A stretch of 38,919 bases of DNA from positions 1 through 38,919 of IMG/VR virus record IMGVR_UViG_3300020172_002729; one strand, 5' to 3'. The notes below the pieces were generated by a model. It had not been told where the DNA came from and searched no databases. It worked only from the letters and a program-made list of their open reading frames with translations. This DNA comes from a virus. Positions 1 through 35,592 of this stretch are shown one piece after another. A program made the translations under genes and the position numbers. Position 1 is the stretch's first letter. Every line of letters starts with the position of its first letter.

Positions 1-1134
1 AGTAACGTTTGTAATCTGTACTGAACTTATTACTCTCGCTTGTTCGGTGGCGTTAGTTGAGCCATCAAAAACCATAGTTAAATTACCAACGGTGTTAATT
101 ACATTTACACCTAAATTACTTTCTAATCCACCACCAACTCTATACTGAATGAACAATGTTGTATTTGGTGTTGGTATCAAACCTAAGTTTACGTTATTCT
201 GATAATCGTTTAATCTTGGTATTACACCTGTTTGTGTAAAAGTAGCCAACTGTTCGTCGGCAGTTGAGTTTGCACCACCAAAAGTAATCTTCATAAAGTT
301 TTCAGGTGTAAACTCACTTATGAATCTATTGTTAGTATCTATGTAAATACCAGGTGTTATACCTTGACTTGCGGTTTTACCTGCAAAAGGAATAAACACT
401 CTCGATTCTGCCAATGCTGGAACTTCATACCATCTACCAACAGGTGAAATAAATTCAGAATACGCTGGTATGTTTTCATATGTTATACCATCTTTTTGAA
501 TTATTGAAGTTACGTTTAATACGTTTCTTTCGGGTAAAAATAAATTAAAGAATGGTATAGCATCTGATGATGTAATTACTCTCTTGAACACTTTAGTTAT
601 ACCGTTAACTAAGAATTCTCTTTTTGTTATATTATAACTAATAACTCTATTTGTTCCGTCTAATACAGGTATAACTTTTTGGTTTGGTTGTCCTGAGGCG
701 TTAAATTGACTTGAGAAAACAATGTCGGTCAAATTTTCAAATGTTTGTCCCGCACCAATAAATTGTGAACCCGCTTTAATTGTGCCCATGTAATTTACAT
801 TAGGTCTATCACCACCAACAGGTACGTTAATTGTAATATCACAAACAGCAACTGATGGTCTATTACCAGGTATTTTTAAACCGTATGTACGAGCGATATT
901 ATATAATGAACTTCTTTGTTGTGCAAACTCTAAAACTGTTTCTTGTATACTTCTATCAATATGATAATGTAGGTTATCTGTAACCGCCGCGTTTAAATCT
1001 AATAACACAGAAAAAATAGATGCGTCATTAAAGTTGTTAACTAAATCAGGGTAATATTTCCTTGTATAGTCGATTAATTCTTGTCTAATAGCCGCAAAGT
1101 CTCTTACGGTATAGGATATTCTTCTTTCTGCCAT
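1..1134 (-). CDS. 6: Baseplate wedge protein, T4 gp6-like (partial, C-terminus beyond window)
   Basis: Reading from an ATG at 1134 the frame is open for 378 codons to the window edge, so the C-terminal part is missing. The protein starts MAERRISYTVRDFAAIRQEL and continues with a segment reading NDASIFSVLLDLNAAVTDNL. This 'act-early in the chain, all-against-all' N-terminal pattern (RDF..I...L......P....F...D.S....LLD..A...D.L.Y..D) is typical of gp6/gpJ-like baseplate wedge proteins, which form the ring of the inner baseplate around the hub. The following residues are beta-rich and fit the rest of that family. The gp25 gene ends one base before this start codon (1136), and gp25 and gp6 are direct neighbours and binding partners in contractile tails, which supports the call. 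No separate promoter or clear ribosome binding site is seen, so it is probably translated from the gp25 message. Confidence 0.85.
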   Translation of the reverse strand, partial: MAERRISYTVRDFAAIRQELIDYTRKYYPDLVNNFNDASIFSVLLDLNAAVTDNLHYHIDRSIQETVLEFAQQRSSLYNIARTYGLKIPGNRPSVAVCDITINVPVGGDRPNVNYMGTIKAGSQFIGAGQTFENLTDIVFSSQFNASGQPNQKVIPVLDGTNRVISYNITKREFLVNGITKVFKRVITSSDAIPFFNLFLPERNVLNVTSIIQKDGITYENIPAYSEFISPVGRWYEVPALAESRVFIPFAGKTASQGITPGIYIDTNNRFISEFTPENFMKITFGGANSTADEQLATFTQTGVIPRLNDYQNNVNLGLIPTPNTTLFIQYRVGGGLESNLGVNVINTVGNLTMVFDGSTNATEQARVISSVQITNVT

Positions 1135-1135
1135 T

Positions 1136-1606
1136 TTATATATTAATAATTATAAAGTCTCTTGATTGAAACGTATTATCGGTTATTGTGAAATCAATTC
1201 TTATTTTAGCAGTATATTCTGATGTCCCTCTACCCGCCACTCTATATACTCCATTACCTAAGTTTTCATAATTAATGGTGCCTACTGAACTATATTGTGT
1301 TTCATATTCCTCATATGGTAATACAATAATATCATTAACTACTAAGTTTGGTATGTATTTACTTACAGTATCACGAATGTCATCCTTAACCGCCTCGAAT
1401 GTAATTCCATCAAAAGGTTCAAAAATAAATTCGTATAATCTACTACCAAAATCAGGTAAATAATATCTACTTCCTTTTCTTGTTAATAAAAGATGAACTA
1501 AATTACTTCTTGTTTCTTGGTCGGGATTTTGTGATAGTGATAAATAATCACCAACCAAAGAATCGGTAAAAGGAAAGTTTACACCATATGTTATACCATT
1601 AGCCAT
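1136..1606 (-). CDS. 25: Baseplate wedge protein, T4 gp25-like
   Basis: About 156 residues beginning MANGITYGVNFPF. It carries the gpW/gp25-family pattern: an N-terminal NLVHLLLTRKGSRYYLPDFG stretch, then SRLYEFIFEPFDG, then a helix and IPNLVVNDIIVLP. gp25 is a lysozyme-fold (but non-enzymatic) wedge subunit that initiates sheath assembly on the baseplate. The open frame runs upstream to a TTG at 1612, but the ATG at 1606 gives the usual family N-terminus, so I take that start. It overlaps the end of the upstream DUF5522-like gene by eight bases and ends one base before gp6, so the three look co-transcribed. A TATTTAT element sits five bases ahead of the ATG, inside the end of the upstream gene. 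Confidence 0.88.
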   Translation of the reverse strand: MANGITYGVNFPFTDSLVGDYLSLSQNPDQETRSNLVHLLLTRKGSRYYLPDFGSRLYEFIFEPFDGITFEAVKDDIRDTVSKYIPNLVVNDIIVLPYEEYETQYSSVGTINYENLGNGVYRVAGRGTSEYTAKIRIDFTITDNTFQSRDFIIINI

Positions 1607-1817
1607 TTTCAATAAATATAGTTGTGTTCCCTTTTTTGTGAGCAGGATAAAAAGGACAATGTCTACAACCTGACCCGCAACAATATCCTCGTTTTAAATG
1701 AAATTCTTTAGTAAAAACATATTTTCCATTTTCAATGTAAAAATCAGGATTGGTATTTTGTGTTGAGTCCCCACTTAAAAGTATTGAGGTCTTCTGTTGT
1801 AAGTTTTTGTAATTCAT
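1599..1817 (-). CDS. Small cysteine-rich protein, DUF5522-like
   Basis: 72 residues. The C-terminal half contains a conserved-looking block, FHLKRGYCCGSGCRHCPFYP (about residues 39-58), preceded by DFYIENGKYVFT. This matches my memory of the DUF5522 family, small proteins of unknown function common in Bacteroidota and some eukaryotes; the four cysteines and the histidine suggest a metal or iron-sulfur site, which is inference. The first 25 or so residues do not look conserved and are encoded in the stretch shared with the 3' end of the HNH endonuclease gene (1744-1817), so the true start could be further inside. The stop overlaps the gp25 start. The gene lies among baseplate genes but is probably not structural; it looks like an acquired host gene. 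Confidence 0.7.
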   Translation of the reverse strand: MNYKNLQQKTSILLSGDSTQNTNPDFYIENGKYVFTKEFHLKRGYCCGSGCRHCPFYPAHKKGNTTIFIENG

Positions 1818-2331
1818 TGTTCTCCGCCACTTTAGTACATAAATGAATAAAAATTTTTTCAGGAAATGTATTTTTCATTACGTTTATATGTTTATGAACC
1901 CACTGAACATTCCCAATTATATAACCTAAATTACTATCAATTCTATCTAAAGATGCTGTGTAATTTCTATCATTCCAAAATTTAGGTAAAGTAATATCTA
2001 AGCCAGATAATTTACATTTTCCATTTTGTTGTAAAAACAATTGATTAATGTATTCTTTTGTAATATTAACATCTAAATTCTTTCTTTTAGTTCTTATTTT
2101 AACCCCGCTATTAATAATTTTGTACCACATATCACCTGAAACTCCTTCAAGTTTATTGGTACATTTACAAGATATTATTTTATTTTGTCTCAAATGAGTA
2201 CCAAAAACTTCACAAGTGTTACCACAATCACATTGACACAAGTATCTAATGTGTCCATTTTTATTTTTACCAAGTTGTTCTATAACAATAAGTTTTCCAA
2301 ATCTGTTGCCAATCATTTCAATTTTTTTCAT
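1744..2331 (-). CDS. HNH endonuclease (free-standing, homing type)
   Basis: 195 residues. The N-terminus reads GNRFGKLIVIEQLGKN followed by a CxCxCG...CxC cluster (CQCDCGNTC then ISCKC, about residues 33-57), a zinc-binding module frequent in phage HNH proteins. The nuclease core is residues about 105-152: GKCKLSGLDI, ASLDRIDSNLGYIIGNVQWV and HINVMKN, matching the SLDRIDS..GY..GNVQWV..HIN.MK signature. Such enzymes cut DNA and spread their own genes between phages. It stands alone, between the ribonucleotide reductase terminator and the DUF5522-like gene. Its last 24 codons overlap the start of that gene in another frame, which suggests that it was inserted here and reads into its neighbour. 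No intron or intein around it was recognised. Confidence 0.9.
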   Translation of the reverse strand: MKKIEMIGNRFGKLIVIEQLGKNKNGHIRYLCQCDCGNTCEVFGTHLRQNKIISCKCTNKLEGVSGDMWYKIINSGVKIRTKRKNLDVNITKEYINQLFLQQNGKCKLSGLDITLPKFWNDRNYTASLDRIDSNLGYIIGNVQWVHKHINVMKNTFPEKIFIHLCTKVAENNELQKLTTEDLNTFKWGLNTKYQS

Positions 2332-2354
2332 ATTTCACACATGTTTTTACAATT

Positions 2355-2361
2355 ATAAATA
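2355..2361 (-). promoter_or_regulatory. TATTTAT element ahead of HNH gene
   Basis: The minus strand reads TATTTAT, 23 bases before the HNH start codon and just downstream of the ribonucleotide reductase terminator. That is the expected place for a promoter that restarts transcription. The promoter role is inferred from recurrence of the motif. Confidence 0.4.
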
Positions 2362-2371
2362 TCTTGTGAAA

Positions 2372-2406
2372 TAAAAAAAGGATGGAAAAATCCATCCCTT
2401 TTTTAT
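2372..2406 (-). terminator. Rho-independent terminator after ribonucleotide reductase
   Basis: On the minus strand GGATGGA and TCCATCC form a 7-bp stem around a four-base T-rich loop, with an A-run before and a run of seven T after the stem. It lies about 16 bases past the reductase stop codon. The A and T flanks could extend the stem and let it work on both strands. Confidence 0.85.
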
Positions 2407-2421
2407 TATTTTAAATTTATA

Positions 2422-4281
2422 TTATTTGATTTCACAACCCAAAGCTCCACAAGCAATTTCACCACTTAAATCTGTTTCATCAGTAAGTTCTACAACTTTT
2501 GACAAATCAATTGTGTGAAGTTTAGTGAACAATCTTTCATATTCTTCTTTAGTACAATCTTCAAATGGTGCTTGAATATAACTTCCGCCATCATAAGGTA
2601 ATACAGAAAGACCGTTATAGAAATCTCTGTTTTCCCACATCCACTCACCCGCCAATTCCCAATCTTCAGGTTTTAGACTGATTGTTGCAGATACATTGTG
2701 TGTATTAGAACCACTTCTGTGACCAGGTCTTACCCATTCTTGTGTGATTTTCTTAACACGGTCCAACAATTGGAATGGTGATTCGGTTCTTAAAATTGCA
2801 CCTTCGGGTGATTTTTGTGGTACCGAAATTACTGCGGTATCGTGTGGTCTGAAATATTCATCTTCTATCAACTCAGGGTGATAAATTGCCAAGTATTGAT
2901 AAATTGATTCATTTTTACCAACACGAACACGACGAATATAGTAGTCATTGTGCCAAGCGTGAATACCTGATGATGTTCCCAAAGTCAATGATGTTGTACC
3001 AGCTGGTTTAACAGTTGTTGTTCTTGCTGATTTGTTAATACCAATAAGTTCTGCGACTCTTGCATTTTCTTCTTTTACAAGTTTAGCTGCTTCTTTCATA
3101 TCATAACCCAAAACAACACCTGAACCGATACCTGTCATTGATACACCAATCAACGCTTCTTTTTCAGTTGTACGTTTCCAAATATCTCTTAGGTAATGGA
3201 AATCAGTATACCCTGCTTGGAGTGTTCCGATAAAGGCCGCTGCTTTAACACGGTTGTTCAAATCTTCTTGTGATTCAATGTCAGAAACATTTACTTCACA
3301 CAAATTACAGAATTGGTTTGGTCTCAAAGCGATTTCACAGCAAGGATTAGTTCCCCAATCTTTATCGTTTGTAAAATAGATACCAGGTTCACCAGCTCCT
3401 GAAGCCTCAACTCTTTTCCACAAATCCATAAAGAATTCTTTTGTGATTTTGTGTCTCAACAAAGTCGCTGAGTTATTAGCTCTACCTCTTTGTGGGTTGT
3501 GTTCCCACCAAGCACCTGACTTACACGCAATCATTTCGTGGTCATCAGCACTAAATAAACTTATCAGAGCTGCTCTGCGAATCCCTCCTGCTAGAACGGC
3601 ATCTGCAATATGACAAACCATATCATGAACTTCAATTGGTGTTAATTTTTCACCATCTTCTTTTGCATCCAACATTCCTTTTAACTTGTGAAGACAATCT
3701 TTTAATGGTTGAGGACCTGGCGCTTTACCACCTGATGTTACAAGTCTAGCTCCTTTTGGTCTGATGTCTGAAAAATCAAATTCAGGTGTTGAAAGATTTT
3801 CACCAAAATAAGACTTCATTAATACTTTAATTGCGTCTGCCCATCCTTCAATAGAATCACCAATCAAAAATCTTCTTGTTCTGTTTGAGTTTGGTTTTCT
3901 AATTTCAGGTAGTTTATCAACGTGGTGTTTTTGTACTGAATAACCAACACCAGTTCCACCTAACAACAAGAACATAGTTTCTGAAAATGCGTCCAAGTGG
4001 TCGATAGGTAAATAAGCACAGTTATAAATTCTGTTTGGTGATATTTCAATTGGTTTACCACCAAACTGCATTGACCTCATAGAAGGTAATACTTTTTTAT
4101 CATAAACATATTTGTAAACCTGCAAAATTTCACCACCTAATTGTGGGTACTTTTTGATATGCATGTTCATGTTTCTTGTTACAAGTTCTTCCCAAGTCTC
4201 ACGTCTATTGAGCTCAGGAACAAATTTTGCGTACTTCATGTAGACAGTTAAGTCTGACAGAATCTTTTGCGATGCGTCCAT
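2422..4281 (-). CDS. nrdJ: Adenosylcobalamin-dependent (class II) ribonucleotide reductase, monomeric type
   Basis: 619 residues. It reduces ribonucleotides to deoxyribonucleotides using vitamin B12 coenzyme, supplying phage DNA synthesis independently of oxygen. Visible landmarks: an N-terminal cysteine in RIYNCAYLP (Cys88), the LLLGGTGVGYSV substrate loop (106-116), the active site NPCCEI (312-317; thiyl-radical Cys314 and Glu316), CNL at 325-327 holding the redox partner cysteine, the phosphate-binding VKPAGTTS segment, and a C-terminal CGALGC (Cys611 and Cys616) just before the end, which delivers reducing power. This layout matches the single-chain Lactobacillus-type reductase (about 740 residues), here shorter. 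It follows the helicase gene by 24 bases. AAGGAG lies about 16 bases ahead of the ATG, rather far for a ribosome binding site. T4 itself uses a class I two-subunit enzyme, so this is a replacement. Nucleoside di- or triphosphate preference cannot be read from the sequence. Confidence 0.92.
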   Translation of the reverse strand: MDASQKILSDLTVYMKYAKFVPELNRRETWEELVTRNMNMHIKKYPQLGGEILQVYKYVYDKKVLPSMRSMQFGGKPIEISPNRIYNCAYLPIDHLDAFSETMFLLLGGTGVGYSVQKHHVDKLPEIRKPNSNRTRRFLIGDSIEGWADAIKVLMKSYFGENLSTPEFDFSDIRPKGARLVTSGGKAPGPQPLKDCLHKLKGMLDAKEDGEKLTPIEVHDMVCHIADAVLAGGIRRAALISLFSADDHEMIACKSGAWWEHNPQRGRANNSATLLRHKITKEFFMDLWKRVEASGAGEPGIYFTNDKDWGTNPCCEIALRPNQFCNLCEVNVSDIESQEDLNNRVKAAAFIGTLQAGYTDFHYLRDIWKRTTEKEALIGVSMTGIGSGVVLGYDMKEAAKLVKEENARVAELIGINKSARTTTVKPAGTTSLTLGTSSGIHAWHNDYYIRRVRVGKNESIYQYLAIYHPELIEDEYFRPHDTAVISVPQKSPEGAILRTESPFQLLDRVKKITQEWVRPGHRSGSNTHNVSATISLKPEDWELAGEWMWENRDFYNGLSVLPYDGGSYIQAPFEDCTKEEYERLFTKLHTIDLSKVVELTDETDLSGEIACGALGCEIK

Positions 4282-9388: not shown

Positions 9389-10063
9389 TTACTGAGCTAA
9401 ACCTTGGTCAAAACTTTTTCTAACTTCTCTATGGTCCACGTCTTCAACATCTTCAGGTTTTAAAATGTACTCATTTTTTCCTGTTTTTTCCATTTCATCA
9501 CTTTTTTCACCAAAGAAATCAGTAAGTTTTTGATTAAATGGATATGAATCTAAAGACCTTAAGTGTAACTTTTCTTCTGGTGTCTTTGTTCTATATTTTT
9601 CAATCTTATCTTCAATACCATTTATCTTTTCGAAGATACTATCCATTTGTGATAATTTTTGTTCCAAGTCATCAAGTTTGGACATCATTGATGTCATATA
9701 TTCTTCTTGTTTTGTTTGAATGTCTTTTTGAGAATTCACCAATTCAGTGATATCTAATTCTTCGGTACCACTTTCGCTAGGTGTTTCTGTAGTTCCTTCT
9801 TCATTACCTGTAATTTCTTCAACATCGGGGTCATTCGCAACATCAATCGGTTGACCAGGTTCTGTAGTTGGTTCTGCTGGCGGAGGAGTTGCACCACCTA
9901 AAGTACTATCAGCGGGTTCGGGTCCTACAGGAGGAGCACCAGCCTCGGGTGCTGCGGCGTCTAATGGTGCATCTGCGGGAGCATCTTGTTCGTTTATGTA
10001 ACGATTTATTTGTTTGTGTCTTGTTAGTTCTTGTAAAAGAGCTTCAGATAATGTTTTTTTCAT
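9389..10063 (-). CDS. Hypothetical acidic, proline/alanine-rich protein with coiled coil
   Basis: About 224 residues from the ATG at 10063 (MKKTLSEALLQEL); the frame also extends six codons to a GTG at 10081, which I reject because it lies inside the end of the previous gene. Three parts are visible: a short amphipathic N-terminus (1-26), a disordered low-complexity stretch rich in Ala, Pro, Glu, Gly and Thr (about 27-105), and a helical coiled-coil part (about 105-165) reading EEYMTSMMSKLDDLEQKLSQ, followed by a mixed C-terminal part. This architecture resembles virion core or scaffold-like proteins in which an N-terminal peptide targets the particle, but no family is recognised. It is 11 bases after the 75-residue gene and is followed by the gp32 promoter region. 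Confidence 0.72.
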   Translation of the reverse strand: MKKTLSEALLQELTRHKQINRYINEQDAPADAPLDAAAPEAGAPPVGPEPADSTLGGATPPPAEPTTEPGQPIDVANDPDVEEITGNEEGTTETPSESGTEELDITELVNSQKDIQTKQEEYMTSMMSKLDDLEQKLSQMDSIFEKINGIEDKIEKYRTKTPEEKLHLRSLDSYPFNQKLTDFFGEKSDEMEKTGKNEYILKPEDVEDVDHREVRKSFDQGLAQ

Positions 10064-10073
10064 TTTATTTTTT

Positions 10074-10301
10074 TTAATCACGTAATAATGTTTTAATACC
10101 TGTTGGGGTTTCTACCTTTAAGGTTCTGTTTAATTTCATAGTATTATCAACTCTTTCGATTAAACCGTCTTTCATTCTGACTGTATAACAATCACCTGTT
10201 TGTAAATCACAAACTTCTTTATATCCATTTCCTAAATCTTTCTCAGCGATAACAGTATCCTTTTGTAGGTAGTTATCAAGTAAACTTTTTAATTGGCTCA
10301 T
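10074..10301 (-). CDS. Small hypothetical protein
   Basis: 75 residues, MSQLKSLLDNYLQKD..., with a helical N-terminus and then short beta strands (NGYKEVCDLQTGDCYTVRMKDGLIERVDN). Two cysteines eight residues apart might pair or bind metal; no family is recognised. It has its own TATTTAT element 16 bases ahead of the ATG and is separated by 33 bases from the giant hub gene, so it may be transcribed with the following acidic protein gene as a small unit. Placement after baseplate genes suggests a virion or assembly role, unproven. Confidence 0.65.
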   Translation of the reverse strand: MSQLKSLLDNYLQKDTVIAEKDLGNGYKEVCDLQTGDCYTVRMKDGLIERVDNTMKLNRTLKVETPTGIKTLLRD

Positions 10302-10334: not shown

Positions 10335-13300
10335 TTAAATAAGTAACTTTTCAGTATTAGCCAACGTAAGTGCCCTTTCCGCCACGGTGTAGTATTCTGT
10401 AAAGTTTGGGTCTTTCTTGATGTCGGTGACATTTGGTGCGTACCAATATTTGTAGAACAAAGTAACAAAAGATTCTGCGGTACATTTAAAGTTTTCACCG
10501 TTTATGTCTTCAATATTAATTGCATTGTACCCCTCTTTTTTAGTACATTCTATTTGCGAATTTAATAAATTGGCGAAATAGTTTTTCATAAAATCTAAAC
10601 AAGTTCCAATCCTAACAAAATCAAATATAGGTACCAAAGTGCCTTTGTTGTCTAATTGTCTGTATCCTGAAACATACTGTAACAAAGATTTTGACCATTG
10701 TATATCACCTGTAATACCATATAAATTATTTAACTGTATTTTGAAAGTAGCCTTTTCTGTGTTATATCCGCTTAAGAAAAACAAAGTAAATAAGAACAAC
10801 CTCATTTCTTTGTCTGATACATTTTGTTTTAAATCAATAACTAAATTATTTAAAGTTATTGTTTTAGTTGTGTATGGTTGTTTACTTAATTTTGATTGGT
10901 CGGACTCAGGTGAACCCCAAAGATTTGTTTCTAAAGGTTCCGCTGTTGAGTTTTCATAATTAATTATAAATCCTTGGTAAGGTACTCTTTGTTTAATTTG
11001 ATAGTCAATTGCAGCTTGTCCTTCTAAATATTTTCTTGATTCTGAGTCTCTAGTTACAACAGTATTATTTGCCGATTTAGTTTTAACAGTATTTTGTAGT
11101 TTCTTTGTAAAGTCTTCATTAATAGAGGCTAATTCATCGTAAACTTTTGGTACCGACAGTGATGACATTCTTTGCCCCTTAATTGTCGTATTAAACACAC
11201 CAGGTCCAATTTCATGTTTAACATTTCTAATAATATATGTACCATTGAACATGGGTAAGTGCCTTAATACAAAATACATTGTTGGTTGTATCATAACATT
11301 ACCTAATGTTTTTACAGTACAATCGTATGTTCTATTTTTATACAACTCAAACAATGAAACTGTTTGTTGTGATGTTTTTTTATTTCCGCCCAATTGTCCC
11401 ATGTCAACTATTGTCTGAATTTGTTCAGAAGATGTTACGTTTTGGTTTTGACTTATTTCAACAGATTTAAATACATTTTGATTTGGAACACCAAAATCAA
11501 CAACAAATCCAACCGCCTTATTGTTCCTAAATTGGTTTGTTACAGGATTTGTATTTTTTAAAGTGTTACCAGCACTAACGCCCATATCAAATGAATCACT
11601 CTTAAACGGATATTTTGGGTCATTGTCCATAGACAAAGTTTCCGATGGTTTTCCAATATATTGACACAAAAATTTTGGTGAAGATGAGATATAATCAACA
11701 TAACCAAAGGTACTAAACACGTCATTAGCATTGTTTAATATTGTTTGGTTTCTTGTTGTACTATTTAGATAAGGTTTACCATAAAAATTAATATATGCTG
11801 GTAGTACAAAAAAGTTCATTCTGTTTTCAGCAAACAATTGTCTTAACAGACTCATAACTGAAGTGTTTGAATTGCTCCAACTACAATACTTTATTATACT
11901 ATCAACATTAATAATGAAATCGTCACCAATGTCTCTATTACTTTTGTCAAAAAATAAGAACTCTTCAAATAACGACCTTGTACTAAAATCAATACCCGCA
12001 ACCCATTTATCGTTAAGAGCTTTAAAGACCTCCCACATTTCAAGTTTTGTACTGTCACCCTCAAATTTAGAAATTGCAACTTCGTCAGATTTTGGTCCTT
12101 GATTTATCGCATTTGGTAATTTAGTTCTAAGTTGGTTCTCAATATTTGTTCTCTTTTCGTAAGTATCTTTGATTAGTTTTGTAATTTCTTCTCTAAAATC
12201 TTGAGGTTCATAACTTGGAAGTTTGACTTTTCTTGTTGCGTATATCTTAATTAGTTTATGTAATTTTTGAATGTTAGGTACTGTAAACGCAATATTATTT
12301 TCAATAAAGAAATCATAAATGTATGAAACCTCAGTATATTGGATGTTTGGTATTGTTGAAAACCCTACATGTAATTTTAATGCCTTCCACTCTTCAGGGT
12401 AATTTGTCTGAGATTCTTCTAATGTACTTACTGAATCAGGTAATGAACCAAGAACATATGTACCATATACTTCAGATACGTTAGGTTTCATTTTGTTTAC
12501 CTGTTCGTCTGTACCTGTAATAAAATTACCAAACTGAACTCTATCAAATTGTGTTGGATTACCAATTTTTAAATAAACAGATAATTCTAAAAATTTAGAT
12601 ATTGTGTTTGATATTGCGCTTACTTGTGAACTAGCAAATCCCTCAGGGTTTTTTTCTGAAGGTGGCGTAACTAACAACATCTTTTTAAGAATTTGTTGGA
12701 AGTTGGAGTATCCTGTTTCTGCAGTATCGGACTCAATGAATAATTGTGAAACACCGCCCCTTGTACTAAATCCAATAAATTCTTGTTCAAATAAATCTAA
12801 TTGTTCTTTTGTGAACACACCAAACAAATCTTCAATTTTAGCATATGGATTATTATTGGTCCTATTTGTACTATACAATCCAAACTCAGATTGATTATCT
12901 GTATTATTATCTATAAATTTTAAATATTCATCATAATTTGGTTTCTGTATTATAGAATTATCAAACCATCCAAAATTTGGTGCCGACCAAAAAGCTCTTG
13001 CGGAACCATTAAACATTTGTGGCGAATTGACAAAATCGTAATTAACATCACCTGATGATTTATTAACAATATATGACTGTAAAAATGGTAAGTATCCTGC
13101 CGATGGGAATAACAATGATTTACCAACTTCTTCGGAACCAAAGACTTTACCATATGGTGCGGTAATATTAAAATAAGAATGATACGGAACTAATGGTCCA
13201 AAAAGACTGTTGTTTGTAACAACATTAAAATTTGTTATAACTTTCAAATTTTCACCCCAAAAAATATCTGGTTTACTATCAACATTATTATTAAACAAAT

Positions 13301-31078: not shown

Positions 31079-32848
31079 ATGTCCGATAGTTCACCAATAG
31101 AATTAATCTCACTTGTAGAACAAAAAGCTCTTAATGTTTTAGAGAACTATAACGGTGCCAACAATTATATACTTAAATTAAAAAATATTTACGGACCAAA
31201 CAAAAAAGGGATACCAACAAGAAGTCAATCCGATTATATAATAACCTATCAAAATGTTGTTCCAAAAGTTGCAAGAAAATGGGTTGAACTTGATAGTTAT
31301 TTTTCAGAAAAAATTGCTAACGAAAAATTATACACCGAACCACCAAAACAGGTTTGGGTTGAAAAACTATTAGTTGAGAAAGACAAAGCTTATCATGTTT
31401 GGGGTAAATTCTTCGAGAGTGAACAATTATCGGAATTTTGGATTCCAAAAGTTGCAATTATTAAAAACCCTGAACAATATTATAAAGAAATAGATTTTTC
31501 AAAATATTCTAACAGACCTTTATTGTTTCATCAAATAGAAGCGGTAAATAAACTTGTAAGAACAAAAAGATTTATTTTGGCGGATGATATGGGTTTAGGT
31601 AAAACCACTTCAACCGTAGTTGCCGCTTTAGAAACAGAAGCAAAGAAAATATTGGTAATTTGTCCAGCATCTTTAAAAATTAACTGGCAAAGAGAAATTC
31701 AAAATTATACTGATAGACCAACATTTATTTGTGATGGAAAAAAATATGAAGACGCTGATTTTGTAATCATCAATTATGACATCATCAAAAATTTTCACGA
31801 CCCCGAAAATGAACAAGACTCATTAATATTAAAAAGTAAATTTGATTTAATTGTAATTGATGAAGCGCATTATATTCAAAATAAATCAGCACAAAGAACA
31901 AAATTAATTAATAGTTTTGTTAAAGACGTTGATAGATTGTGGTTACTAACAGGCACACCAATGACATCAAGACCAATGAATTATTATAATTTATTAAATC
32001 TTGTTGAGTCGCCTGTTGCTGCAAATTGGATGGCTTATGTTAGAAGATACTGTAACGGATACCAATTCAAAGTTGGAAATAGAAAAATATGGAATGTTAC
32101 AGGAGCATCAAATTTAGAAGAATTAAGAGATAGAACATCAAAACAAGTTTTACGTAGATTAAAAACTGAGGTGTTAGACTTACCCGATAAAATCATTACA
32201 CCCGTTTATTTAAGATTAAAATCAAAAGAATATGAAAGTTTAATGGGTGAATACTATGATTGGTACGATAAAAATCCCGATGAAAGTACATCACTAACAG
32301 TTCAGTTTACAAAACTTACAAAAATAAGACAAGTAATTGCAAGTGAAAAAATAAATTCAACAATAGAATTAATAGAAAATATATTAGAACAAGATAAAAA
32401 AGTTATAGTTTTTACAAACTTTACAGAGACATTACACACAATACATTCACACTTTGGAAAAAAAGCGGTTTACCTTGATGGTTCTTGTAGTCCAAAACAG
32501 AGACAAGATTCGGTAGACAGGTTTCAAAATGATGAAGAAATTAAAGTGTTTGTTGGGAACCTTAAGGCCGCTGGTGTAGGTATCACACTAACCGCCGCTG
32601 AAGCTGTTATTATGAATGATTTATCATTTGTACCATCAGACCACTCACAAGCCGAAGACAGAAGTTATAGATATGGACAGAAATCAAATGTTTCTGTTTA
32701 TTATCCAATATTTGAAAATACAATCGAAGGAGTTATATACGATATATTAAATCACAAGAAAAATATTTTTGAGACTGTAATGGGTGATAATCAATCAAGA
32801 GCGGATGTTGTGCAAGAAATAATGAGTCGAATTAATGAACGGATGTAA
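31079..32848 (+). CDS. SNF2-family DNA helicase/translocase
   Basis: 589 residues. ATP-driven translocation or remodelling on double-stranded DNA. The motor motifs are in order: Walker A DDMGLGKTT (169-177), IVIDEAH (258-264), LLTGTPMTSRP (289-299) and, in the second lobe, VFTNFTETLHTI, AVYLDGSCSPKQRQ, GNLKAAGVGITLTAA and QAEDRSYRYGQ. That is the SMARCAL1/HepA-like single-chain SNF2 pattern. The first 140 residues are not recognised and may bind DNA. It may serve the role of T4 UvsW in recombination-dependent replication. A purine run AAAGAG lies three bases before the ATG; no TATTTAT element is present in the 42-base gap on this strand. It is followed by the superoxide dismutase-nuclease fusion. 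Confidence 0.92.
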   Translation: MSDSSPIELISLVEQKALNVLENYNGANNYILKLKNIYGPNKKGIPTRSQSDYIITYQNVVPKVARKWVELDSYFSEKIANEKLYTEPPKQVWVEKLLVEKDKAYHVWGKFFESEQLSEFWIPKVAIIKNPEQYYKEIDFSKYSNRPLLFHQIEAVNKLVRTKRFILADDMGLGKTTSTVVAALETEAKKILVICPASLKINWQREIQNYTDRPTFICDGKKYEDADFVIINYDIIKNFHDPENEQDSLILKSKFDLIVIDEAHYIQNKSAQRTKLINSFVKDVDRLWLLTGTPMTSRPMNYYNLLNLVESPVAANWMAYVRRYCNGYQFKVGNRKIWNVTGASNLEELRDRTSKQVLRRLKTEVLDLPDKIITPVYLRLKSKEYESLMGEYYDWYDKNPDESTSLTVQFTKLTKIRQVIASEKINSTIELIENILEQDKKVIVFTNFTETLHTIHSHFGKKAVYLDGSCSPKQRQDSVDRFQNDEEIKVFVGNLKAAGVGITLTAAEAVIMNDLSFVPSDHSQAEDRSYRYGQKSNVSVYYPIFENTIEGVIYDILNHKKNIFETVMGDNQSRADVVQEIMSRINERM

Positions 32849-32863
32849 AGTTTTGTGAAACTC

Positions 32864-32874
32864 TATTTATTTAT
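32864..32874 (+). promoter_or_regulatory. Overlapping TATTTAT elements ahead of SOD fusion gene
   Basis: TATTTATTTAT: two overlapping copies of the motif on the plus strand, 15 bases before the ATG, in the 41-base gap after the helicase gene. Confidence 0.42.
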
Positions 32875-32889
32875 AATAAAAGTAGAGAC

Positions 32890-34452
32890 ATGAAATTGAA
32901 AAAGTTAGAAGCCGAAATAGAAGAAGTACAAAGTTTAATAGAAGGAACTGAGAACATACAAGAAAAACTTCAAGAACAACAAAAAGAAATTATTAATGAA
33001 ATGAAGAAAATAGGTATTGAAAAATTACCTTATTCTTATTCATCATTACAAAGATTTATCGACCCAAAGACGATGAATATCCACTACAACAAACATTATA
33101 AAGGTTATGTGGATAAACTAAACAAAGCTTTAGAAAAACAAAAAGACAACGATTTAGACCTTGAAGAGATTATCAAGGGAATATCTCGATTCAACAAGAC
33201 AGTCAGGAACAATGCTGGCGGTGCTTTTAATCACGCATTGTTTTGGAAAATGCTAACACCAAAAAGACAAAAGATTAAAGGTGAAATTTTAGAAAAAATT
33301 ATTAAAGACTTTGGTTCATACGAAGAATTTAAAAAACAATTTATTGAAAGAGCAAAATTAAATTTTGGTTCGGGTTGGTGTTGGTTAGTTGTTACAAAAA
33401 CAGGAAAATTAAAAATTGTTACAACACCAAATCAAGACAATCCATTGATGAATGTTATTAAAGATGGGGGATATCCACTTTTAGGTTTAGACCTTTGGGA
33501 ACACGCTTATTACCTTAGATATCAAAACAAGAAAGATGAATATATTGAAAAGTTTTTTTTGGTAATTAACTGGGAATTTGTAAATTCCCTATACACGTCA
33601 AGAACGGAAAAGAAATTAAAAGAAGAAAAATTAGTGTCAGAAATTTTAACAGAGGGGCAAAAAAGTATGGGTTGCAATTCATCACAAGTAAAAGAAATTA
33701 ATAGGTTGTTTTCAACAAACCCACAAGTAAAATATAAATTTATGAATACTATAAACACAATATTAAAAAGTGTTTATACCGAATATTGGAAAGAAAAAGA
33801 CGAATATGAACCAGGTTCAATGTCAGGAATATATGATTTTGGAACTAAAGGTCGTTCAGTTTTAAACAAATTAAATACAAATTATAGCTCATTCTGTATT
33901 TTGTTAAACGACTTAAACATTTTTTTAAAGTCAAAGGAAAAACAACCAATTGTGTTTTCACCTAATAACAAAGAACAACAACTACAGGAAGTTGAAAGAT
34001 TTTGTAACTATTTGTTATTACTTAAAGATAGAATTTTTAATTTGTCCACATCAAAAACTCTTCAGGAAATTTTCAAAAAACTAAAAGAGACTGATGAAAG
34101 GGGTGAAAAAAGAGAAGACGATACCGTAATACAACTCAAAAAAATATTTAATACTGATAAAGTTGAAAAAATTGGTGGTCTTGGAAATGAGGAAGACATG
34201 ATTTCAGGTGTTGATGCGATTATCAACATTAACGGTGAAAGAAAAACTGCTCAAATTAAACCGTTTAGTTATACTAAAGATATTTCTGAAACCGAGGTTA
34301 TGGTCTTTGGGGCAAGTGCACCTAAAAAATATAAAACTGATTTTATTGTTTTTAATAACCCAAGTAAAACTATTGTATTTAAAAACAACGCAACAAAAAT
34401 ATTAGATGGTAACTACGTTTTTCCAAAAGATAGCGAAATTAAATCTGTTTAA
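32890..34452 (+). CDS. Superoxide dismutase (Fe/Mn type) domain fused to a PD-(D/E)XK nuclease-like C-terminus
   Basis: 520 residues. Residues 1-45 are a coiled coil. Residues 46-236 are a complete Fe/Mn superoxide dismutase: YSYSSLQRFI, metal ligands His65 (NIHYNKH), His115 (NHALFW), Asp201 and His205 (DLWEHAYY), the gate tyrosine Tyr73, and the motifs FGSGWCW and TPNQDNP. Gly111 and Gln182 at the second-sphere positions resemble manganese enzymes. Residues 240-400 are unrecognised and helical. The C-terminal 120 residues contain GVDAIININ and TAQIKP (Asp442, Gln455, Lys457), like the D...(E/Q)xK active site of PD-(D/E)XK nucleases, with Glu409 or Asp410 on the preceding helix. If active, the SOD part would convert superoxide to peroxide and oxygen. 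Lying between the SNF2 helicase and neck gp13, it could be a virion or DNA-processing protein. The nuclease part is inference. Confidence 0.85.
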   Translation: MKLKKLEAEIEEVQSLIEGTENIQEKLQEQQKEIINEMKKIGIEKLPYSYSSLQRFIDPKTMNIHYNKHYKGYVDKLNKALEKQKDNDLDLEEIIKGISRFNKTVRNNAGGAFNHALFWKMLTPKRQKIKGEILEKIIKDFGSYEEFKKQFIERAKLNFGSGWCWLVVTKTGKLKIVTTPNQDNPLMNVIKDGGYPLLGLDLWEHAYYLRYQNKKDEYIEKFFLVINWEFVNSLYTSRTEKKLKEEKLVSEILTEGQKSMGCNSSQVKEINRLFSTNPQVKYKFMNTINTILKSVYTEYWKEKDEYEPGSMSGIYDFGTKGRSVLNKLNTNYSSFCILLNDLNIFLKSKEKQPIVFSPNNKEQQLQEVERFCNYLLLLKDRIFNLSTSKTLQEIFKKLKETDERGEKREDDTVIQLKKIFNTDKVEKIGGLGNEEDMISGVDAIININGERKTAQIKPFSYTKDISETEVMVFGASAPKKYKTDFIVFNNPSKTIVFKNNATKILDGNYVFPKDSEIKSV

Positions 34453-34459
34453 TATTTAT
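34453..34459 (+). promoter_or_regulatory. TATTTAT element ahead of gp13-like gene
   Basis: TATTTAT on the plus strand, directly after the stop of the SOD fusion gene and five bases before the ATG at 34465. Confidence 0.38.
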
Positions 34460-34464
34460 AGTTG

Positions 34465-35592
34465 ATGACAGTAATACAAGAACCCGAAAGAAGTAAACTA
34501 TATAGACGTATCAGGACTCTACTTGGTGCACCTGTTAGGGGTGTTGAATTGGAGGACGAACAAATGGATTCATTAATGGAACTTGCCATTGGTGATTATA
34601 CACAATACGTTTTAAATTGGTTGATTGACGCTCAGTGGACATCACTTAATGGTTTAAACTTAGATGAGCGTTCAGTTGCAAATGCGTTAATCACACGTTC
34701 ATTAGATTGGGAGACCCAATATACATACGCATACTCAAAGATAGTTGGGTTACAAGCTGGAGGTCCTTGGGTTTTGAAGAAGGATTATTTTGATTTAGTA
34801 CCCAATCAACAATTGTATGAAATACCAGCAGGTAGAGAAATTAATGAATTACTTTGGTTTCAAAGAGCCGAATTAAATGATACATTTTTTGACCCATTTA
34901 TGGGTGGTCTTTATGGTTTTGGAGGTACTGGTTTAGGTGGACCCTCGGGATACGCACAATTTGGTGTTGGTGGAAGTTATTTTATGATGCCAGCTTTTGA
35001 TGTTGTATTAAGAATGGCGGACAGAAATTTAAAACAAAGAATTATTATTGGAGATTTAACATATAGAATTACCGCAGCTCCTGATGGTAAAAAAATAGTT
35101 CATTTATATAATGTACCTGGTGGAAGATTTGATTTCTCAAACATTTCATTCAATTCATACAGATGTTGGTATTGGTATTATGATACTACCGACTCTAATA
35201 GAAATGACTGTTTAGCCCAAAATCCTGATATTGTTAAACTACCTTCAGATGTACCATTAGACGAATTGACTTGGTCTGAACTTAATACACCTGCCCAACA
35301 ATGGGTTAGAAGATGGTTTACCGCATACTGTAAAGAAACGTTATCTAGAATTTGGGGAAAATATAGTGGTAATTTAAAAACACCAGATTCGGAACTTACT
35401 TTAGATTATACCTCTTTAGCGACAGAAGCTAAAGATGAAAGAGCAAAACTTATTGAAGAGTTAATAGGTGCTGAAGGTCAGTTAACAAGATTGAGACCTG
35501 AAAAAGTTATGGAAAGAGAAGCTTTGATAGCTGAAAACTTAAATAAACAACTTAAGTTCAGAGCGTTCCCTGGTAATTATTACGTAATTTAA
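34465..35592 (+). CDS. 13: Neck protein, gp13-like
   Basis: 375 residues from ATG 34465 (an in-frame TTG at 34462 would add one residue). The N-terminus has RTLLGAPVRGVELEDEQMDS and ELAIGDYTQYVLNWLIDAQW, the C-terminus WSELNTPAQQWVRRWFTAYC, KETLSRIWGKYSG and a final helix with EALIAENLNKQLK. This matches the T4 gp13-type neck protein family (309 residues in T4), which together with gp14 seals the filled head. The middle has a glycine-rich insertion (MGGLYGFGGTGLGGPSGYAQ) absent from T4. It is separated from gp14 and gp15 by the SNF2 and SOD genes and lies on the opposite strand. The next gene starts within the last bases of its stop codon. Confidence 0.78.
   Translation: MTVIQEPERSKLYRRIRTLLGAPVRGVELEDEQMDSLMELAIGDYTQYVLNWLIDAQWTSLNGLNLDERSVANALITRSLDWETQYTYAYSKIVGLQAGGPWVLKKDYFDLVPNQQLYEIPAGREINELLWFQRAELNDTFFDPFMGGLYGFGGTGLGGPSGYAQFGVGGSYFMMPAFDVVLRMADRNLKQRIIIGDLTYRITAAPDGKKIVHLYNVPGGRFDFSNISFNSYRCWYWYYDTTDSNRNDCLAQNPDIVKLPSDVPLDELTWSELNTPAQQWVRRWFTAYCKETLSRIWGKYSGNLKTPDSELTLDYTSLATEAKDERAKLIEELIGAEGQLTRLRPEKVMEREALIAENLNKQLKFRAFPGNYYVI

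Follow-up and report, generated by a model that had tools for sequence, protein, structure and literature searches.

A modular phage gene joins a Mn-type superoxide dismutase to a nuclease-like domain and may encode head cargo cut by the prohead protease

In the window, by which we mean the whole 38,919-nucleotide stretch of viral DNA that was analyzed, a single open reading frame joins a superoxide dismutase (SOD) to a PD-(D/E)XK nuclease-like domain. The 520-residue frame was confirmed exactly as first described. Its parts, the motif that precedes it and its two neighbors are as follows.

31079–32848 (+): SNF2/UvsW-like DNA helicase, the upstream neighbor (PF00176, phrog_62)
32868–32875 (+): TATTTATA, late-promoter-like motif 22 bases 5' of the start codon (by enrichment)
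32890–34452 (+): whole gene, 520 residues, in the order tail, SOD, linker, helical middle, PD-(D/E)XK domain
32890–33000 (+): amphipathic N-terminal tail, residues 1–37, ending I-N-E(37), a proposed capsid-targeting propeptide (variable sequence with L/I-X-E at or near residue 37)
32992–33003 (+): proposed prohead-protease site 1, I35-N36-E37 / M38 (conserved [LI]xE column)
33016–33600 (+): Mn-type Fe/Mn SOD domain, residues 43–237 (Pfam, PDB relatives)
33601–33675 (+): variable linker, residues 238–262, with two L/I-X-E motifs at E245 and E255 (both Glu invariant; low pLDDT)
33676–34089 (+): helical middle domain, residues 263–400 (AlphaFold2 model)
34090–34428 (+): PD-(D/E)XK nuclease-like domain, residues 401–513, with E409, D436, D442, Q455 and K457 (invariance, Foldseek)
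34462–35592 (+): head-tail adaptor (neck) protein, the downstream neighbor (phrog_211, 2.3e-10), with TATTTATA at 34453

The SOD domain is intact and likely to be catalytically active, as judged from its sequence. The Pfam domains Sod_Fe_N (2.2e-22) and Sod_Fe_C (2.4e-38) span residues 43–233, far over the cut-off, and the nearest sequences in the PDB are Mn-SODs, the first being that of Sphingobacterium (6gsc). The initial annotation had read a complete Fe/Mn SOD with four metal ligands, the gate tyrosine and the Mn-type second-sphere residues Gly111 and Gln182, and all of these are present, the ligands being three His and one Asp. The ligands H65, H115, D201 and H205, together with the gate Y73, H69, G111 and Q182, are invariant in every family member that covers them, so that no homologue has lost its metal site; across all architectures the four ligands, the gate Tyr, H69, W163 and Q182 do not vary in 196 of 196 SOD domains. 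The top cellular matches of the domain, at 44–53% identity, are nearly all from Bacteroidota, and this relatedness suggests a Bacteroidota host for the phage group.

The C-terminal region of the window's own protein has no family match by sequence at useful E-values in Pfam, the PDB or the phage collection; PHROG gives zero matches for the whole protein, and the Pfam matches over the cut-off are to SOD only. An AlphaFold2 model of residues 238–520 (pLDDT 87.9, pTM 0.79) presents the middle and PD domains as a single unit, and its best matches in a Foldseek search of the PDB are PD-(D/E)XK enzymes, among them I-Ssp6803I (E 7e-3, probability 0.99) and archaeal Hjc resolvases. The structure prediction and fold search that had been proposed as a check thus returned a restriction-endonuclease-like fold for the C terminus, for which the case is weak but consistent, resting on a structural match at that E-value with no match by sequence. 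The site residues D442, Q455 and K457 are present as first reported, with E409 and D436, which the initial annotation had missed, and all five are invariant in 177 of 177 aligned rows. The glutamine at Q455 is no argument against activity because a D..QxK arrangement is catalytic in the DREN domain of SPARDA (PMC12205087).

The domain order is not peculiar to the window. IMG/VR was scanned with the C-terminal half and then with a full-length alignment, and after removal of duplicates there were about 175 further distinct SOD-middle-PD proteins, with identities from 43% upward, on contigs of T4-like phages; these are the homologues of identical domain order for which a search had been suggested. 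The repetition of this order in so many distinct proteins, on many contigs, led us to reject a frameshift or an assembly fusion as its origin. Two apparently frameshift-split SOD/nuclease genes (L261 and L270) were left out of the natural variants, and three copies (L018, L020 and L143) are apparently damaged or truncated. A pattern scan of 84,980 bacterial and archaeal genomes did not find the C-terminal family. In BFVD there is one deposited member, A0A6J5L953 from an uncultured Caudovirales phage, which is annotated "superoxide dismutase"; because it matches the C-terminal half, a member of the family is already deposited under the SOD name. The middle-PD unit is also present in A0A8D9CCA0 (BFVD), a 1113-residue marine phage protein, and, without SOD, in a 735-kb phage genome (L204), where the distant copy retains the E/D...D...QxK site residues; a search with this copy as the query found no viral relatives. 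Free-standing SODs without such a fusion are found in the jumbo phages 2.275.O and MIJ3.

The gene occupies a fixed slot. Among 148 loci whose completeness allowed a judgment, the helicase lies 5' in 146 and the neck gene lies 3' in all 148, the two exceptions lacking only the helicase, and contamination by a bacterial SOD gene was rejected on the basis of these constant neighbors. The "neck region" of the initial annotation is correct as a position, since the SOD gene adjoins the neck gene, and there is no sign that its product is a neck component. A homing endonuclease was likewise rejected because of the fixed position and the fusion; the SOD-less copy in L188 does have an HNH gene on its 5' side. 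Elsewhere in the window, an open reading frame at 1744–2331 (−) adjoins the ribonucleotide reductase gene and resembles an HNH-like homing endonuclease by eye, with no Pfam match at E≤0.1.

Within this slot the modules are exchanged. With the downstream neck protein as the query, which avoids bias toward SOD, 78 loci were surveyed: 36 have SOD, middle and PD domains, 38 have SOD without a recognized middle-PD unit, three have middle-PD without SOD, and one has neither. In three of the 36 (L385, L388 and L389) SOD and middle-PD are encoded by separate genes. The partners of SOD in the group of 38 include none at all, an N-terminal HExxH zincin-like domain and an alternative C-terminal module, the last following a linker with the same two L/I-X-E motifs as in the SOD-nuclease, KKLNE/SYLKVLLE/N (here and below, a slash marks the bond after the motif Glu); in L436 another QxK-type region is fused on. 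On two contigs, L188 and L189, SOD is absent and a single LVLSE/S site connects the tail directly to the nuclease, with the HNH gene just upstream. In L188, L204, L382, L385 and L398 the middle domain is part of a chain that contains no SOD.

Several further proteins were seen at these loci. In L188 a QxK nuclease-like protein with an N-terminal tail ending NINE/D is encoded at 10853–11935 (+), flanked by the SOD-less gene and the neck gene, and a region similar to it is fused behind HExxH-SOD in L436 (2438–4900). An N-terminal domain with HEW-x-H and (N)EDEA is fused ahead of SOD in L384 (4853–5950), L410 (4870–5976) and L399 (3822–5969), all on the + strand; it is zincin-like, with a weak Peptidase_M76 match (0.017), and could be a head-packaged protease. 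The L426 locus has an SNF2-like helicase gene with an apparent intein (571–3489, +), two QxK nuclease-like genes and no SOD.

What recurs in the SOD-nuclease family, in the N-terminal tail and in the linker behind SOD, is the motif L/I-X-E. The prohead protease of T4, gp21, cleaves behind L/I-X-E and in this way removes the short N-terminal capsid-targeting sequences that bring proteins into the T4 head (PMC9026906); T4 gp23 loses 65 residues (PMC9958956). In the present family the N-terminal tail, described at first as a coiled coil and better read as a removable tail, is variable and mostly ends in [IL]-x-E (often LITE, IINE or FLNE), after which a native-like SOD N terminus begins. The column at residue 37 holds [LI]xE in 81 of 83 rows of one alignment and 139 of 177 of a larger one. 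In clades without Glu at this column the motif is mostly a few residues off (IIQE/Q, QIDE/A, TITE/Q), which is how a short linear signal would be expected to behave. E37 is followed by Met in most members and by Ala or Gly in other clades, gp23 of the same phages having Ala, and in the Met clades initiation at M38 could yield a product that resembles the processed form. In the high-entropy linker, E245 and E255 are invariant in all 177 rows and are the sole invariant residues there before C262; they are usually preceded two residues earlier by Leu or Ile and mostly followed by Ser, Thr, Gly, Ala or Glu. Residues 243–259 have pLDDT values below 50 and are predicted to be disordered.

In 52 representatives below 80% identity, compared with shuffled versions of the same segments, L/I-X-E is enriched 2.1-fold in the tail (z 11) and 3.7-fold in the linker (z 16), these z values being optimistic for related rows; the ratios elsewhere are 1.03 in SOD, 0.85 in the PD domain and 1.37 in the middle. 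L/I-X-E is a short motif, and E204 within SOD matches it as well. The tail with its terminal motif is kept even where the SOD of this phage group stands alone. The window, a 39-kb fragment, has no homologue of gp21 (PF03420) or gp23 (PF07068); related long contigs hold gp21, gp22 and gp23 homologues, and among 15 records that hold the fusion a gp21-like Peptidase_S77 (PF03420) is found in five and gp23 (PF07068) in seven. One gp21-like protease of these phages is encoded at G001 99519–100232. In every copy of gp23 read, from five related records, LINE/A occurs at about residue 60, which resembles T4 gp23.

Signals of this kind may extend to other genes. Genome-wide, L/I-X-E at positions 6–12 was counted in 20 of 113 and 13 of 89 genes against a background of about 6%, which is suggestive only. 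In G001 and G006 several genes begin MK-x-[LIV]-ITE or similar, with L/I-X-E at residues 6–12 at two to three times background, and perhaps this is a general capsid-targeting signal in the phage group. A low-complexity Pro/Ala/acidic protein (window 9389–10081, −; G001 32147–32821; G006 42110–42769) has an N-terminal tail ending INEQ, IVEQ or ITEQ and may be a further head cargo or core protein that gp21 cuts. The same phages encode a second protein of about 500 residues (L033 3092–4579, L034 4166–5650, L035 4115–5623 and L043 3851–5347, all −). It begins with an MK-x-ITE tail and contains a zinc-ribbon-like stretch, a Phage_L5_gp82 match (PF25735, 7e-29) and internal L/I-X-E motifs; its C-terminal domain, of the PD-type QxK kind, is related to that of the SOD-nuclease. 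Between tail tube and sheath lies a gene (window 24972–25823, −; G001 47640–48494) whose product has the N terminus MSLHKIVRQNLLSLVNE/G in its G001 form and a DWDDN motif; it is HAD-like by eye and has no Pfam match.

The motif ahead of the gene resembles a late promoter. In two related phage genomes of 150 and 112 kb, TATTTATA is the most enriched 8-mer in the 60 bp ahead of genes (31-fold; present at 34 of 208). Of 134 distinct SOD-middle-PD genes, 101 have it in the 80 bp upstream, typically 20–29 bases ahead of the start, as compared with 1.3% of random 80-bp windows; only eight of 17 HExxH-SOD genes and none of four SOD-less genes have it within the same distance. Genes preceded by it are those of gp21, gp22, tail tube, neck and terminase as well as SOD; it was absent before the ribonucleotide reductase, DnaB-like helicase, exonuclease, UvsX, ssb, SNF2 helicase and DNA polymerase genes examined. 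T4 and cyanophage late promoters have TATAAATA/NATAAATA (PMC2984593). TATTTATA is not identical to the T4 TATAAATA, and we regard it as the putative equivalent, in this phage group, of a T4-type late promoter.

We consider it probable that the SOD-nuclease gene encodes an internal head cargo polyprotein of the T4 type that is processed in the prohead and then probably injected. The sequences directly show the domain architecture, its conservation, the enriched motifs and the genomic setting; from these we infer that the tail acts in targeting, that the chain is cleaved, packaged and injected, and that both domains are enzymatically active on their presumed substrates. The polyprotein would be made late, together with the structural genes, and the tail (residues 1–37) would direct it into the prohead core. 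A gp21-like prohead protease would then cleave behind the L/I-X-E motif that ends at E37 and behind one or both of those in the linker (E245, E255), so that the tail is lost and a Mn-type SOD (approximately residues 38–245/255) and a nuclease module (approximately 256–520) are freed. Both products would remain alongside the genome in the head and probably be injected with it. The SOD would clear superoxide around packaged or incoming DNA, the benefit arising for packaged DNA in sunlit water or for incoming DNA in a stressed cell, and protection of DNA or the virion from superoxide, one of the options first put forward, is possible. The PD-(D/E)XK enzyme would act on DNA, whether host, defense-related or branched phage DNA. 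IPI of T4, which is injected and guards the incoming DNA, is a precedent (PMC9958956). A broader reading, toward which we lean somewhat, is that tailed phages employ the polyprotein strategy of other viruses: a single late gene in a fixed slot would encode interchangeable enzymes (HExxH zincin, SOD, different nucleases) connected by L/I-X-E linkers, and after cleavage by the prohead protease within the head the separate enzymes would be injected with the DNA.

Of the other explanations, the one that survives best is that this is an ordinary auxiliary gene, the full-length protein acting in the infected cell with nothing packaged, SOD against the oxidative stress of the host and the replicating phage and the nuclease in DNA metabolism. 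SODs and other defense genes against reactive oxygen species (ROS) are common in freshwater phage genomes and have been proposed to protect host and phage (PMC6802176), a helicase and a DNA polymerase are neighbors, and the jumbo phage SODs are unfused. However, the SOD gene has its late-type motif in common with head genes, the enrichment of L/I-X-E is restricted to the tail and the linker, and the stand-alone SODs of this group keep the motif-ending tail; we hold such a role to be rather unlikely. It is also conceivable, and somewhat less likely still, that the protein is packaged as proposed but that its nuclease works on branched or terminal DNA in head assembly, in an Hjc-like manner, and not in the host. 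The Hjc Holliday-junction resolvases are among the best fold matches, but such similarity is generic for PD-(D/E)XK folds, and several loci are without this nuclease or have a different C-terminal module.

The initial annotation had also offered redox sensing coupled to DNA cleavage, in which the SOD would sense or consume superoxide and control cleavage by the PD-(D/E)XK domain of the same chain. Both active sites are invariant in one chain over 177 rows, but the linker between them is variable save for the motif Glu residues, and its motifs persist when the partner domain changes. Because SOD-only genes, split genes (L385, L388 and L389) and nucleases without SOD in the chain (L188, L204, L382 and L398) all occur, coupling in one chain is not required, and we regard it as very unlikely. 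That the SOD fold is reused as a non-catalytic structural part of the head or neck, as the adjacent neck gene and the late-type motif might suggest, is hardly credible, since an active site put to such use would not keep its four ligands, gate Tyr, H69, W163 and Q182 unchanged in all 196 domains.

If the cargo reading, which we prefer, is true, the particles of a widespread group of T4-like phages contain both an antioxidant enzyme and a nuclease, made from one precursor by the head protease, and the principle of the T4 internal proteins extends to catalytic polyproteins. L/I-X-E at domain borders would then be a readable code for injected phage proteins in metagenomes, and why a phage brings its own SOD into the cell would become testable.

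In the literature searched, which was incompletely covered, we found no description of a SOD-nuclease fusion, of its cutting signals or of the modular slot. The closest known system is that of T4 IPI–III and Alt (PMC9026906, PMC9958956), with which the present proteins share an N-terminal tail ending in L/I-X-E, a late-type motif and cargo that varies among phages; homologues of gp21, gp22 and gp23 are present in the phage group. In contrast to IPI–III and Alt, SOD and nuclease are here in one chain with internal cut sites, the tail has about 37 residues as compared with 10, and packaging is a prediction. No sequence similarity to IPI–III or Alt was found with PHROG or Pfam, and the SOD-nuclease protein may work like the T4 internal proteins and yet not be a sequence member of their families. 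The Mn-SOD of Sphingobacterium (6gsc/5a9g; Bacteroidota) is 47% identical and shares all ligands and second-sphere residues, to which the phage protein adds the N-terminal tail, the C-terminal linker and the partner domains. I-Ssp6803I, Hjc and the DREN domain of SPARDA (PMC12205087) have a similar alpha/beta topology and E/D...D...QxK arrangement, whereas the phage domain has no detectable sequence similarity to them and has its own helical middle and a head-gene context. The SODs of freshwater phages are listed as ROS-defense genes (PMC6802176); in the literature searched we found no account of the fusion, cut sites, late motif or modular locus. Finally, giant viruses are known to package a SOD in their virions (reviewed in PMC9405923), a likeness that extends to the present phages insofar as their particles would bear one; the Megavirus enzyme is a Cu,Zn-SOD (PMC9405923), unrelated in fold and virus, and is not part of a polyprotein.
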